Below are positions 33,466-40,342 of a DNA stretch of 64,000 nucleotides, in pieces (positions within the stretch are counted from its first letter, which is position 1; each line of letters starts with the position of its first letter). The position numbers and the translations under genes are program-made. The stretch spans positions 310,001-374,000 of the forward strand of contig BCIV01000010.1 of the NCBI GenBank assembly GCA_001600055.1. Reading direction: 5' to 3'. The notes beneath the pieces are model-generated. The model saw nothing but the letters and a program-made list of their open reading frames with translations, did not search any database and had not been told where the DNA came from. Source of the DNA: Filobasidium wieringae. Taxonomy: Eukaryota; Basidiomycota; Tremellomycetes; Filobasidiales; Filobasidiaceae.

Positions 33466-33758
33466 ATCGGTATACCTGACTGTCTTATACAGGACGAGGA
33501 GGCTACTCATAAATCTCATAGAATACAGTAGTAGTGAGCTCAGGCGAGAAAGTTAGCTGACGTACCATCATTCATGGTGACTCACGCGTACTCACGTGAT
33601 GGGCGATTAGACATCATTGCGGTTCAGACCACTTTATATTGCAACTCTGACTCCCTCCTTCCCTCCCGCTACCAGCCACTCGCACACTCCCAGACACACT
33701 CGCCGGTCCATTAACTTCAAATTTTGATAATACTCGCCCAAGGAGAACGCTTGCAGAA

Positions 33759-34980
33759 ATGGAGACCTCTACTCATCCCAGTTCGAGGTGTTGTACTTCA
33801 GTAAGTCCTCGAGTACATCGTCATTACACCTCTCCATAACGATTACCCGGTTGGAATCGCTACAGCACCATTTTCGATATCAGCGCCCCCCACCAACTCC
33901 CAAGCTATCAGGTTCCCTCGCTTCCACTTTCCAAGCGCCCTCGTCTACCCATCAGATCGCTCAACTTCTATTGCAGAGGAATAACACGCACCAGAAGCGA
34001 CGTCCCGTCGTACACAAGAAGCGGCATACTACAATGGACCGATATTTTTCCTCATCACCACTGACTGCTCTATCATCCTTACCGTCTCCGCCCCCTTTAC
34101 CTTCACCGCCGTTGATCCCGGTCGTTCGATATCCATGGTCCGACCACCCCGCTTATGACGAAGATCCTATTCCAGAAATTCTACCTCTGAGTCCTGATTT
34201 CAATGAGATTTTGAAGATCTTCGCTCTCACAAAGAATACCTCTGGACCTCTGTCAGAGAATCAAGTTAAGTCTTGGATCACCAGGCTGGTACAGTCTTAC
34301 TTTCCGCCGCCGCAGTCAGCGTTAAATGGAGTGAGATTCTTTTCAGGGCGGTGAGTTATCGATTCGGTCTATCCACGTTGCAAGATTCGAGACATCTGGC
34401 ACTAAGTTCTTCAATCGACAGAGAGTCAGTGTACGGGAAAAGAAGGAAAGCGATCGATCTTACAATTCAGGCATTCACGGACGACGACCTCGACGACATG
34501 GAAGCTACATATGTATGCTTGATGGAGTTCAAACTTGAACAACATACTTTAGAAAAGAGGCTTGCAGCTGAAGAGCAACTGCACCAAAGGTTCGAAGAGC
34601 TTGTTCCTACATCTCGACACCGTTATATCATCGGAATAATCGTGTTGGGCAAGTACTTCAAGGCCTTCCTTCTTGACTGTGTGGAAATGACGGTCCTACC
34701 ACCCTTTCAACGACGCGACCTGAGGTACACCTCTTGTCTAGCAGATCAGGAAATGTACCTGGACAACCCTTATGTGGATTGGACAACCGACCTGGGCTCC
34801 AGGCATTTGTGCCAGGTGTTTGCTGATGTTGTAGGGATTGGTTTAGGTGCAAGGACGGACCGAGACGTCGACGTTGCTGAGTTAACGGACGGGAAAATCA
34901 ATTGTCGACTCAACGGAATTCGCTACCGATCACTCTATGCTACTCCTACCACTCAACCTGGTAGCCTCATGCTAGACTAG
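33759..34980 (+). CDS. Protein of unknown function, three exons
   Basis: Exons 33759-33800, 33866-34350 and 34422-34980 join in frame to 361 residues. The first 14-codon exon is kept because it provides the only upstream ATG in frame with a good GTAAGT donor and a TACAG acceptor; translation from the ATG at 34034 is an alternative. The N-terminal third is basic and Pro-rich (PVVHKKRHTT, LPSPPPLPSPPL). The rest looks folded: SENQVKSWITRLVQSYF, ESVYGKRRKAIDLTIQAF, MEATYVCLMEFKLEQHTLEKRL, RYIIGIIVLGKYFKAFLLD and YLDNPYVDWTTDLGS. I do not recognise the family. The alternation of charged helices and hydrophobic strands could fit a nuclease- or kinase-like fold, but nothing specific supports this. 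Confidence 0.6.
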
Positions 34981-35546
34981 ATGCAAAATGGGTTTCTAGC
35001 CGCCGTGATCGATCTTAGATCTTAGAGCGGATTGACGGACGCGAATTCTTGACTCGACAGCTTGTTCGATGGACGATCGCATGTGAGTGAGTGATGAGCT
35101 GGCGTCTTGTAGAGCAGTTCCAACAAGTTGTAAAGTCGATCATCAGATTTTCGATGGTCCAATGTCGCCGTACATATTCGTACCTTGCGCTGCTTCATGC
35201 CCTCGACGATCTATTCCGGCGCCCGCGCGAAACTCGAGATTTGAAGGAAGCTAAGATCTCGACATTTAGGCTCGATCAGATCGATCGTCGAACCAGGCAG
35301 CATTGACTCGAAACTCGTAAATCGACTCAGTCAAGCTTTTACCCAATACTTCTGTTCGTTCACAACCCGATCGTGAAGACCGTGCCGAAATCCGCTGCTT
35401 CTAGCTTCGCCAGATACAGCAGTATCGGCAGGCTTCGTCAGGCAGGTCCCTGTTTCTGGTCGAATCGTTCTCGTATCGCTCCGGGCATACTACACATAGC
35501 TCATCCAATAGTGTTCCACCATAACACCAGCACTAAAACGACAAGA
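34981..35546. other. Intergenic region upstream of tRNase Z
   Basis: Several inverted CGATC-containing short stretches occur, but no clear RNA gene. The frame of tRNase Z exon 1 stays open upstream to a GTG at 35373 without an ATG, so I treat that part as leader. Confidence 0.5.
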
Positions 35547-37780
35547 ATGGACCCCAGAACGCTTGAGAAATCGTCAGATATGAAACTCGGCAGGCCTATG
35601 AGCGTGACTTTTGTAAGTATAAGGATATGCCTGCCTGCTACAAGGCTTAACCAACGTTATATCCCTACGTCACGCAGTTAGGAACCAGTAGTGGTGAGCA
35701 AGTCCTGCTTACAAGTGTATCGTGATCTGTACTCAATAACGGTTCTCATTGTGGTCTCAGGTGGAGGTCCTATCGTCTCGAGAAACTGTTCTTCTTTGAC
35801 CCTGAACATGGATGGAACGTCATGGCGTGAGTCGCTGTGCAATCTAGTTCCTCGGCCTGAGCTGATCGTTGAGACACTTGTCTGAATAGTATTTGACTGT
35901 GCGGAAGGAACTCAGCTACAAATCCAGCGGTCTAGCCTGAAATTGAGTCGAATTGAGCGAATTTTCGTTACACACATGCACGCCGATCACACTCTAGGAC
36001 TCGTCCCTCTTCTGGGCTCTCTTCTTAGCGGCATCCAAACGACACCTGAAGATAGAGCAGCGATGGCAGCTTTGGGATTAAAGAAGAAGGCAAAACTCCA
36101 TATATACGGCCCCCCGGGACTGAGGCTGATGGTCAGGCAGATCCTGAATCTCACCTCTATGACTCTTGGAGACGCATACGCTGTTCATGAACTCATACCG
36201 AACAAACAGAGTGTAACTGGGGAAGCTTTCAATAGTACCTCTCCTAACGGCAACGGGAATGAACCTTCTTGTGAATGTAAAGAAGCAGACTTGCAGATTG
36301 CCGAAGCGGTGGGGAAGGACATCCATGCGGACAAGGACGGATGCTGGAAGGATATCCTCAAGATCGGCGAAGGGCAGCACGGTAATGAGGCTCGATCGTG
36401 GAGGGTAGATGCTGGACCCATCAAACATCGTGGTAAGTATGACATACACAGCCAGCTTAGTGCAGGGGACTGATGAGTTTGCTTAAAAGTCATGAGTTTG
36501 GGTTACATCGTGACTGAACCTCCTGCGTATGAACCTCTGGACTTGGACAGCATTCTTCCGATCATAGAATCGCAATTCGAGGCACTTTCCAAGCTTACCC
36601 CTCCTATCCGACATCCCCGACAAGTGACGAGTATTCTTACAAGAACGCTGCGGCCTTATACATTACCGGATGGCCAAATACTACAGCCTCCAGTTCGAGC
36701 GAAGACGACTCCCCGAAAGATTGTCATCTTCGGAGACTGTTGTGGTACCGACAATGCAGCGTTTCTGGAGATGGTCAAAGAACCGAGTTTGCTTGTGCAC
36801 GAAGCTACAAACGCTTGGATCGATCCTGAGCTTGAATTTGCGGGTAAAGCAAAAGGAACAAGTGCAGCTGAAGATCTTGCCGACGCTTCGTCTGGCGAAG
36901 TTGACGCAGCTCATCGAATAGCAAAAGACAGGGTCGCCAATCGATCAAAGGGAAGAGGCCACTCTGATGCCGAGACCACTGGGTTGTTTGCAAAGAGCAT
37001 AGCTGCTCAAAGAGTCGCCGTGAATCACTTTTCTGCTATGTGAGTTGCCGTTTCTGTCGAAAGATCCTGTTGATCGGCTGATGGAAGACTGTCTTCAGGT
37101 TCCCTTCTCCAAAGTACGCAATGGATGAGCCATTCCAATCGCTGATTTCGCCTACTCTCCCCCTTCCTCCTGGTCGGCCGGCACCTCCCATCCATCCTGG
37201 AGAGATTTCAAAGAGGCTCATCACTGCAAATATCGAGACACAAATCACAGATGCATGGGTTGGTAGCTCTTCTGGGACGACCAAGTTGCCACGAGCTGTA
37301 GCCGCCCGTGATTTGATGACGTACGCGATCCCCGCGCATGAGTTGCTGGAATCGGAACGGCAGATCATGCACGATGCGAATGTCGAGAGTGCCAAGCTTG
37401 AAGGAATCTGGAAGCAAGGTTCAGCTGAAGGATTTGTGCGCGAGACTGGGGTCAAGCTTATCGGGGTGTGGCTGGACAACCAAGGAAACGTTTCCGCTCC
37501 GGGCGCTGTCAGTGGCCATATCGCAAAAGGTTACAACGTCGGTCAAGGTAAGAGACATGGGCCCCTTTCCAATGCTGAGTCGAAACTGATCGAATCCTTG
37601 TGACTCTGATATCCGTTTGGCCAAGGCAGTAGCAGAGGTCGACCCGGCAATGAACGGTCTCGGGGCCGAGGGGGAGGTCGTGGCGGAGGTCGCCGGGGTG
37701 ATCGCGACCGGCACACCCGTTTCAACCACAGCCACGGTCGTTCCAAGCAAGAAGAAACAACAGAGGGTGGGCGACAGTGA
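35547..37780 (+). CDS. tRNase Z, short (ELAC1-like) type, with RGG tail
   Basis: Seven exons (35547-35612, 35678-35693, 35761-35826, 35890-36432, 36490-37039, 37099-37547, 37626-37780) give 614 residues. tRNase Z removes 3' trailers from pre-tRNA. The N-terminus matches the short form: SVTFLGTSSGGGPIVSRN, SWLFDCAEGTQLQIQRS, then the metal site THMHADHTLGLVPLLGSL (H-x-H-x-D-H). Later pieces are PIKHRVMSLGYIVTEP, RKIVIFGDCCGTDNAAF with the Asp ligand, LLVHEATNAW with the catalytic Glu/His region, and QRVAVNHFSAMFPSPKY. It is far longer than ELAC1 because of several inserts. Exon 2 is 16 bases. The final exon, read after acceptor CCAAG, encodes an Arg/Gly-rich tail (RGRGGGRGGGRRG) that overlaps the PUS3 start in another frame. 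Using the next acceptor, GGCAG four bases on, instead fuses the frame to PUS3. If the last intron is kept, translation stops at 37603. Confidence 0.82.
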
Positions 37781-39440
37781 GGGCAGTTTCGATCGTCATC
37801 CTCGACGACATGTGGCATTGCTATTCGTCTACCAGGGGTGGCATTATTCTGGACTAGCTATCCAACAGATGAAAACGCCTCTACCGACCGTCGAGGGGGA
37901 ACTGCTCAAGGCGTTGGAAAAGACTCATCTCATAGAAGAAGGAAAGGGATGGGACGGATGTGATCTTTCTCGATGCGGAAGGACCGATCGAGGAGTGAGC
38001 AGTGCGGGACAGGTGGTCACGCTGTGGATGAAGAGTAAAAGGCGACAAGGTGATGGAGGTCTACCTCTGAATGTGGGTGGGGATTGGAGGGAAGCCAAGA
38101 CCCCCGTGGTGAAGAAGGAGAACCCAGCCTCTCCTGACGGAGAAGACGAATCGGCGGTGGAGAGTCGGAAGGAAAAGATCGCGCAACGAATCGCTGGTCA
38201 ACCCACTACTTATAGTGAAGAGGAACTTTCCAAGATGAATGCGCGTCAGAGACAGAAAGCGTTGAAGAGACTCCAAGAGGGTCAAACGCCCTCTTCGACG
38301 AGCGTCACTGAGTTCTCCTACCCCCAGATCCTCAATCGAGTCCTCCCTCCCGAGATCAGGATCTTGGCTTGGTCCCCGCTCCCCTGGTCTGCAGACGATC
38401 CACCGGCGGATCCCGAACGTCCCGATCAACCTCCGGTGGACGCGAGGTTCTCTTGTACCACTCGGCACTACAAGTATTTCTTTACGAGACGACCGATCCC
38501 GGATCATCCACCTTTGGATGTCGAGCGGATGAGGGAGGCTGCCAGTCTGCTCGTCGGGGAACACGATTTCCGGAACTTTTGCAAGGTGGATGGGAGTAAA
38601 CAGATCGATAATCATGCTCGGAGAGTGGACGTGGCTGTCATCCGAAAAGACGACCGGACCGAGATGGCTGACGATTACGATTCGGAGAAGGCCAAGGAAG
38701 AGATCGAAGGGGAAGGGGAGGAATACGTCTTCGAACTGATCGGTTCGGCTTTCCTTTGGCATCAAGTTCGACACATCATGTCCGTCCTCTTCCACGTGGG
38801 ACACGGGTTCGAATCCCCCTCCATCGTCAGTCGATTGTTACATACCGGTTACCCTACCCCGGCCGCGCTCGCGAGCGGGACGGTCGCTCTGGAAGAAGGA
38901 CAGTTGAGGGTGAACGATCCTTCAGCGGTAGGAGCGAAGCCTCAGTACAATATGGGAGCCGCTCTGCCACTGCAGCTATACCAATGTGGGTACCCTGAGG
39001 GGCTCATCGACTGGAGGTATGGAGGGTACGATGGCCCCGTGGACAAGGTGCGAACGATGGATCAGGAGGTCCGGACCAAGGCGGGGGAGGGGAGCGGGAC
39101 GGTCTTGAGCTTTTTGAAATCTCAGGTGGAAGAAGCTAGAGTCAAGGCTCGTCAGATCGAAGCGTTTTACAACGAGTCTGTCAGGATCAATCGACCTGAA
39201 GGGCTCGGGGGGGATCACAAGATCATCACGGAGGGGGAGACGGGGACCAGTTACACGCTCGGAGCAGGGGAGAATTATTCGGGGAGAAAGTACGTGCCGT
39301 TCTTGGAGAGACCGAGGGGGGACCCGGTCGAGTTGCAGAACAAGAGGTGGAGGGAGGGGAAAGGGGAGAATCGGAGGTTGAGAAAGTTGGCGGAGAAGGA
39401 GGAAGCGGGGGCGGAGGCGGAGGGAGACAAGGAGAAGTGA
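37650..39440 (+). CDS. DEG1: tRNA pseudouridine(38/39) synthase (Pus3/Deg1)
   Basis: An intronless frame; from the ATG at 37650 it gives 596 residues. The enzyme isomerises U38/U39 in the anticodon arm of many tRNAs. It is a TruA-family protein: FVYQGWHYSGLAIQ, CGRTDRGVSSAGQVV with the catalytic Asp (residue 113 from this start), SCTTRHYKYFF, GEHDFRNFCKVD, and AFLWHQVRHIMSVLFHVG. The C-terminus is charged (EKEEAGAEAEGDKEK). The frame is open upstream of the ATG back to 37617, and can be joined in frame to tRNase Z by splicing at GGCAG|37630, which would make a 1166-residue fusion. No other ATG precedes the conserved core, so either this ATG or the fusion must be used. The region 37650-37780 would then be read in two frames. 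Confidence 0.88.
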   Translation: MNGLGAEGEVVAEVAGVIATGTPVSTTATVVPSKKKQQRVGDSEGSFDRHPRRHVALLFVYQGWHYSGLAIQQMKTPLPTVEGELLKALEKTHLIEEGKGWDGCDLSRCGRTDRGVSSAGQVVTLWMKSKRRQGDGGLPLNVGGDWREAKTPVVKKENPASPDGEDESAVESRKEKIAQRIAGQPTTYSEEELSKMNARQRQKALKRLQEGQTPSSTSVTEFSYPQILNRVLPPEIRILAWSPLPWSADDPPADPERPDQPPVDARFSCTTRHYKYFFTRRPIPDHPPLDVERMREAASLLVGEHDFRNFCKVDGSKQIDNHARRVDVAVIRKDDRTEMADDYDSEKAKEEIEGEGEEYVFELIGSAFLWHQVRHIMSVLFHVGHGFESPSIVSRLLHTGYPTPAALASGTVALEEGQLRVNDPSAVGAKPQYNMGAALPLQLYQCGYPEGLIDWRYGGYDGPVDKVRTMDQEVRTKAGEGSGTVLSFLKSQVEEARVKARQIEAFYNESVRINRPEGLGGDHKIITEGETGTSYTLGAGENYSGRKYVPFLERPRGDPVELQNKRWREGKGENRRLRKLAEKEEAGAEAEGDKEK

Positions 39441-40342
39441 GGAGATGTAGTAGGATAGTAGATGGGGTCGAATCGTCAGCATGCATGAATATGAATCGTC
39501 AGCATCAGGTACCCTTGCCCAGATGCCCAGCTGCCCAGTTGTGTCCCGTGTATGGCGGTGGTAAGAGAGCGAAGCGATAGTGAGAACACGCGTCTGAAAC
39601 CTTGGTATATGGCGCGCGTTGGGTTGGAATCGATGCGGCTGGACTCGAGGCTGGAATCGGGGATGATCGTGTTTCGGTTCGATTCCGATTGTGAATGAAA
39701 AGGGGGGATGATCACTCAGGGCGGGAGGCGGTCGGTATCGTCAATGGCTTGGACCGCGGTCTGAAGGCTTTGAGCGGGAGGAATCGGTAACTACCTCGGT
39801 GTGTTTCCAGAGCGCCGTGGGGGCGTGGTCGACCGAGGGAATCTCTGTGTTCCTGGCGATTACGTGTTTTCGGGTGATACAGAGGAGAAGCGAGAGAGAT
39901 GATCTCGACGCGACTCGATCGTAGATTTCTTGAACAGGGCAGGTGCACTACTTTACTGCTGCTGCTGCTGCTGACAGTACACTAGCTACCACCTACACCA
40001 CCACCACCACATCAACCACCACCACCTAGACACCTTTGTATCTCAAACCTATCCACTCATCAATCACAAGGTTCTGGTAACCCAAAGACGAGTCACCCCC
40101 GTGTATATATCAACCTAATCTAGTCATTCACACACCGTCACTACTCATACAACACCACAAACACACAATAACCTACACGGCACTCGGACACAACCTACCA
40201 TCAAGTGCAACGCGATTCAACACCTTGAACTCACATACACACAATTTGCACCGTCTCCGATAGTCGACTCTTGACAATATAAAGACAAGTATTACTCATC
40301 GCCAAAACCACCGAACGTATAAACAAAGAACATCAACGAACC
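39441..40342. other. Intergenic region and long 5' leader
   Basis: Contains (CTG)6 at 39956-39973 and, from about 39980, a C/A-rich ACCACCACC-type stretch that looks like an untranslated leader of the next gene. A possible TATATCAA lies near 40103. No ORF with support. Confidence 0.5.

Follow-up and report, generated by a model that had tools for sequence, protein, structure and literature searches.

Introduction

The short form of tRNase Z (ELAC1/tRNase ZS) has been surveyed in the Basidiomycota, where it is present beside the long form (PMC2942849), and the words 'fusion' and 'fused' are absent from the main text of that survey. Here we analyse a locus of Filobasidium wieringae, contained in a stretch of 64,000 nucleotides (positions 310,001 to 374,000 of contig BCIV01000010.1, assembly GCA_001600055.1; hereafter the window), whose tRNase Z resembles the surveyed enzymes in being a single metallo-beta-lactamase nuclease with the histidine motif and, probably, a long form beside it in the genome, but whose last exon can continue into Pus3, the tRNA pseudouridine 38/39 synthase. 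We infer, with a probability of roughly 55%, that this is a conserved tRNase Z-Pus3 fusion gene, in which an older Arg/Gly-rich tail of tRNase Z has been kept in another reading frame and from which both proteins are made by way of alternative splice acceptors. The original prediction for this DNA knew of no described tRNase Z-Pus3 fusion; literature searches, with most subscription papers outside their coverage, likewise showed none among the matches listed.

Alternative 3' splice sites that stand in tandem, separated by a few bases, are a known kind. The present locus is like them in having two AGs four bases apart behind one branch-like site; it is unlike them in that the shift would decide between a stop codon and a whole second enzyme. 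The second enzyme compares with Pus3/Deg1 in its PF01416 domain, its GRTDRGV motif and its closest solved relatives, which are human PUS3, and differs in lacking the usual fungal N-terminal segment and in having a tRNase Z in frame ahead of it.

A different fusion of tRNase Z is found in 11 of the 120 tRNase Z homologues listed, where the partner is thiamin pyrophosphokinase (P0169, P0178, P0180, P0182, P0186, P0190, P0191, P0194, P0197, P0200 and P0227). Those that are named come from smut fungi (Pseudozyma, Sporisorium, Ustilago), and one entry was called 'related to Ribonuclease Z / related to thiamin pyrophosphokinase 1' by its depositors. The likeness lies in the domain order, tRNase Z first and the second enzyme behind (3/3 checked: P0180, P0182, P0197); the smut partner, however, is a vitamin B1 enzyme, whereas that of the window is a tRNA enzyme. 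We know of no splice choice in the smut fusion, and no paper on it was among the best 8 of 91 literature matches.

Results

The short-form tRNase Z occupies 35547-37547 of the forward strand, on which all parts of this locus lie, and has six exons (35547-35612, 35678-35693, 35761-35826, 35890-36432, 36490-37039 and 37099-37547), which translate without a stop and make up 563 codons and one base. The intron that follows, with donor GTAAGA at 37548 and alternative ends at 37625 and 37629, had been predicted with coordinates and frames that proved exact on spliced translation. Splicing to the AAG at 37625 (intron 37548-37625, 78 nt) gives a product of 614 residues, the last 51 of which form the expected Arg/Gly tail (exon 37626-37780, TGA at 37778-37780); this tail begins GSSRGRPGNERSRGRGGGRGGGRRG, and its first codon opens with the last base of exon 6. 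Splicing to the CAG at 37629 (37548-37629, 82 nt) gives the in-frame tRNase Z-Pus3 of 1166 residues that had also been foreseen, uninterrupted up to the Pus3 stop at 39438-39440. The linker of this fusion frame (37630-37805, beginning VAEVDPAMNGLGAEGEVVAEV) overlaps the Arg/Gly tail over 37630-37780 and leads into the intronless Pus3 core (37806-39440), the Pus3 frame being open from 37590 to its stop. Further AGs went unmentioned in the original prediction: TAG at 37632 and CAG at 37635 share the frame of the CAG at 37629, and use of GAG at 37637 would lead back to the Arg/Gly frame.

Relatives were compared as proteins, and the best 120 of 2065 Pus3 homologues over threshold were considered. 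One of them, P0001, is 95% identical to the window Pus3, and P0002-P0007 are 58-62% identical. Six open reading frames (ORFs) of this clade, P0002-P0007, begin ahead of the Pus3 core, and in all six the last tRNase Z exon runs into Pus3 without a stop; they start inside or just before that exon, and a linker of 65-105 residues precedes Pus3. P0001 cannot show the joint because it starts at the acceptor region, and P0013 and P0018, fragments within Pus3, were left out of the count. The original prediction had pointed to related species as a check, and the Pus3 frame is indeed kept open in P0001, the fusion-frame linker included, and through the linkers of P0002-P0007. The chance of an open stretch at each linker's length is 0.7-4.6%, given the base make-up of window positions 39441-40340; these values were not multiplied, because related sequences are not independent. 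Over 94 aligned residues the linkers of P0004 and P0006 are identical at 60, with no gap, and those of P0003 and P0005 at 34 of 105 columns, 6 positions being gapped. That of P0003 contains no Met, and it therefore seems impossible for an AUG start to yield a Pus3 without tRNase Z residues in this case. P0131, a tRNase Z ORF with 64% identity to that of the window, and P0007 agree in the length of their longest contig, 50,525 bases, which fits adjacency of the two. A search for full-length fusion proteins (candidates of 641-2040 residues, of which the 7995 sharing most words were scored) returned none among the matches listed, its 10 matches all lying in the tRNase Z part and none having a Pus3 domain; this search also missed P0002-P0007. 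As a side observation, RG/GR pairs number 0, 2, 1, 6, 0 and 2 in the linkers of P0002-P0007, and the six in the 105 residues of P0005 are perhaps a remnant of the Arg/Gly tail in the fusion frame.

The fusion clade is also marked by what its Pus3 lacks. The usual fungal N-terminal segment (..LSREELIARL..) was matched by pattern in 106 of the 120 listed homologues and seen by eye in four more (P0041, P0048, P0103 and P0106), but is absent from the window and from P0001-P0007; P0013, P0018 and P0023 begin too late to judge. No native Pus3 N-terminal motif was found in any frame of 33500-37810. The segment is not essential to the family, and it is its absence that distinguishes this clade. Pus3 thus appears to have lost its own start when the genes were joined, and this speaks for translation as a fusion ever since. 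The original prediction had placed a PUS3 ATG inside the tail exon in the other frame, and this ATG is present (37650-37652, context acccggcaATGAA, purine at -3), with Met in P0001 as well. It is the only Pus3-frame ATG before the core; the next Met (37869) lies within the conserved core, so a separate Pus3 would need either the ATG at 37650 or a non-AUG codon as its start.

We asked of each overlapping frame what would be expected by chance, recoding the overlap with the residues of one frame fixed and inspecting the other. When the Arg/Gly residues were fixed, the Pus3 frame over the tail was open in 20,000 of 20,000 recodings: the tail contains a single Phe and none of Leu, Ile, Val and Met, and a stop in the +1 frame is therefore impossible over it. 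The original prediction had argued from the lack of a stop in the Pus3 frame here, and that argument is uninformative; we rejected openness of the frame as a sign of dual coding, since the tail residues force it. With the Pus3-frame residues fixed, the tail frame was open in 6.3% of recodings, held at least as many RG/GR pairs in 0.76% and did both in 0.14%, so the Pus3 frame is unlikely to have produced the Arg/Gly frame as a side effect, while the opposite, a Pus3 frame over the tail that merely follows from the Arg/Gly residues, is quite possible. Of the two overlapping frames, it is the Arg/Gly frame that appears to be the intended one. Synonymous codon usage per codon in the overlap is -0.174 for the Arg/Gly frame, -0.047 for the Pus3 frame and +0.052 for the third frame; true-frame windows average 0.094, with a minimum of -0.041.

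Comparison with P0001 adds a modest signal. The window differs from it at five amino acids in the overlap. A single change at the second position of the Pus3 codon accounts for each of them, and all five changes, as deduced at the DNA level from the proteins, are silent in the Arg/Gly frame. Outside the overlap the second position holds 10 of 22 one-step differences, one two-step difference being set aside (one-sided Fisher 0.037 for the excess within the overlap). Pus3-frame changes affect 5/52 codons in the overlap and 23/538 elsewhere. This silence is modest evidence for dual coding of the overlap, which is plausible on these protein comparisons. Elsewhere in Pus3, the differences to P0001 cluster at 38679-38705, with six changed residues between 38679 and 38703; this stretch is probably a free loop.

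The splice signals were compared with those of the other introns and of the genome. The A of a CTGAT branch-like site is 17 nt from the AAG end and 21 nt from the CAG end, upstream of both, distances to be set beside 25, 17 and 18 nt in introns 3, 4 and 5 of tRNase Z; introns 1 and 2 have no CTGAT-type site by the same pattern. Intron 4 (36433-36489), with its A at 17, likewise ends in AAG. Among 118 candidate introns in 264 kb of this genome, 47 end in CAG, 46 in TAG, 16 in AAG and 9 in GAG; the 16/118 for AAG compares with 8/50, 16/52 and 10/49 in three controls (264 kb). In the window alone, with a loose donor, CAG ends number 48 against 33.8 expected and AAG ends 28 against 33.5. These acceptor statistics rest on candidate introns and are a rough guide. 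Both acceptors are credible in view of the branch-site distances, the AAG-ended intron 4 and the end counts, with CAG apparently the better by frequency. No convincing donor/acceptor pair for a second intron linking the Arg/Gly frame to Pus3 was seen by eye between the tail and the core. Use of the AAG at 37625 would give a stand-alone tRNase Z with the Arg/Gly tail and use of the CAG at 37629 the joined tRNase Z-Pus3, and the alternative acceptors probably yield both proteins.

The first enzyme is, by motifs and domain, to be classed as a short-form (ELAC1-like) tRNase Z. It scores 27.8 bits against PF13691 (cut-off 27), its best solved relative is human ELAC1 (3zwf, E 1.8e-29), with HMHADH, GDC, HEAT and NHFS aligned, and the metallo-beta-lactamase motif HxHxDH and the conserved downstream motifs are there, in a single catalytic domain within 563-614 residues. 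The NCBIfam ribonuclease Z equivalog TIGR02651 gives 130.5 bits, below its cut-off of 292.95; models of this type serve bacterial and archaeal annotation, so this miss weakens the ELAC1 label only slightly. A separate gene with a PF13691 domain in the same genome (G000 C4:637383-639465) is the probable long-form tRNase Z.

For the tail, we scored the C-terminal 150 residues of 123 tRNase Z-type proteins, the threshold being 6 or more RG/GR in 50 residues. Eighteen of the 123 pass, among them both listed Naganishia enzymes (P0121 and P0144), several Agaricomycetes and two Tilletia. On this comparison the window shares an Arg/Gly tail with the sister group, although such tails are not universal, and since 2/2 listed Naganishia tRNase Zs have one, that of the window seems to be real and of older origin in tRNase Z.

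The second enzyme scores 76.2 bits against PF01416 (cut-off 23.3). Its best solved relatives are human PUS3 entries, at E about 1e-42, compared with 4.2e-13 for a Pus1 homologue, and its GRTDRGV aligns with GATDKGV of human PUS3, the catalytic Asp motif of the TruA-type domain. The TruA model TIGR00071 gives 137.4 bits, just below its cut-off of 142.85. These scores place it nearer Pus3 than either Pus1 or TruA. The Pus3 core has no other match in its genome, and no tRNA genes were found in the window by ARAGORN.

The window, P0001 and P0002-P0007 form an eight-member clade (100/100) beside Naganishia in both trees. In the 59-row tree the six fused ORFs group together (83/26); in the 21-row core tree the window pair is nested among them (85/89), and the six as a clade are not rejected by the approximately unbiased (AU) test (p 0.099). 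In 13/13 other species with both proteins listed and a single contig each, tRNase Z and Pus3 lie on different contigs, as the differing sizes of the two contigs imply (N. friedmannii, N. vaughanmartiniae, K. heveanensis, Kwoniella CBS 9459, K. pini, K. newhampshirensis, K. shandongensis, K. dejecticola, Cryptococcus DSM 104549, Naematelia encephala, Dioszegia hungarica, Cryptotrichosporon argae and Uapishka_1), the evidence of separation being weaker for those whose contigs are short. Cutaneotrichosporon oleaginosum, whose entries span several contigs, was left out.

Discussion

The original prediction offered a splice-controlled choice or dual coding. This stands to the extent that the joint recurs in six of six clade ORFs and the Arg/Gly tail looks genuine; its appeal to the missing stop falls away. 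Several observations weigh against a conserved fusion gene that makes both proteins. The callers behind P0002-P0007 appear not to splice, so their linkers could hide an in-frame intron. The placement of the window pair within the clade is unsure, and the trees are compatible with descent from a settled fusion or with branching just before it; if the pair lies outside, it could represent the pre-fusion state. None of the 25 listed Tremellales or Trichosporonales-type tRNase Zs has an Arg/Gly-rich tail, the lack of stops over the tail in the Pus3 frame is no evidence because every recoding shows it, and codon usage in the overlap backs neither frame.

The rival that survives best is that only the fusion is made, the CAG/TAG/CAG cluster being nearly always used and the Arg/Gly frame being a decaying relic of the older tail. 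We consider this unlikely. CAG and TAG dominate the candidate acceptors, AAG having 16 of 118, the joint is fused in six related ORFs, and the codon usage of the Arg/Gly frame differs from that of the rest of the gene; against this, the Arg/Gly frame is intact up to its stop and unaltered by the five inferred differences to P0001. Next comes the proposal, which also strikes us as improbable, that these are two separate overlapping genes, with tRNase Z always spliced to AAG and stopped at 37780 and Pus3 transcribed from a promoter inside tRNase Z and started at ATG 37650. The apparently genuine tail, the shared Met with its purine at -3 and the 59-row tree, with the six fused ORFs grouped apart from the window pair, are in its favour, but the native Pus3 N-terminus is gone, the joint is open in six relatives, one of them with a Met-less linker, and the promoter would need to sit within tRNase Z, in an exon or an intron.

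Ribosomal +1 frameshifting at the tail stop (CGA CAG UGA G) of an AAG-spliced message, with the tail serving as linker, is a long shot: only some 25 bases separate the Arg/Gly stop from the Pus3 core, Pus3 is read in the +1 frame and regulatory +1 frameshifting is known from fungal antizyme mRNA (PMC4505036), but CAG acceptors four bases on make it unnecessary. A false one-base indel that splits one continuous frame is very improbable, since the Pus3 frame is unchanged in P0001, a protein of a different source, throughout this G-rich region, in which one indel would merge the frames.

A conserved fusion with alternative acceptors would have a further consequence, which we advance tentatively, as somewhat short of an even bet. 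Acceptors four bases apart would choose between a stand-alone nuclease with an RNA-binding Arg/Gly tail and a bifunctional enzyme, about 150 bases would be read in two frames, and splicing would couple or uncouple tRNA trimming or repair and anticodon-loop pseudouridylation. A natural fusion of two enzymes with different sites of action on tRNA suggests that 3'-end processing or repair and anticodon-loop pseudouridylation are functionally or physically coupled. The locus may also make a route of gene fusion visible, with the old tail and the new linker superimposed in one species and a settled in-frame linker in its relatives.

The smut pyrophosphokinase fusions mean that short tRNase Z has gained other partners, and this suggests that the basidiomycete enzyme is prone to gain partners downstream. 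Single entries also place tRNase Z beside BCCIP (P0166), ribosomal protein S21 (P0213) or protein kinase (P0128) domains; these could be annotation merges or further fusions.

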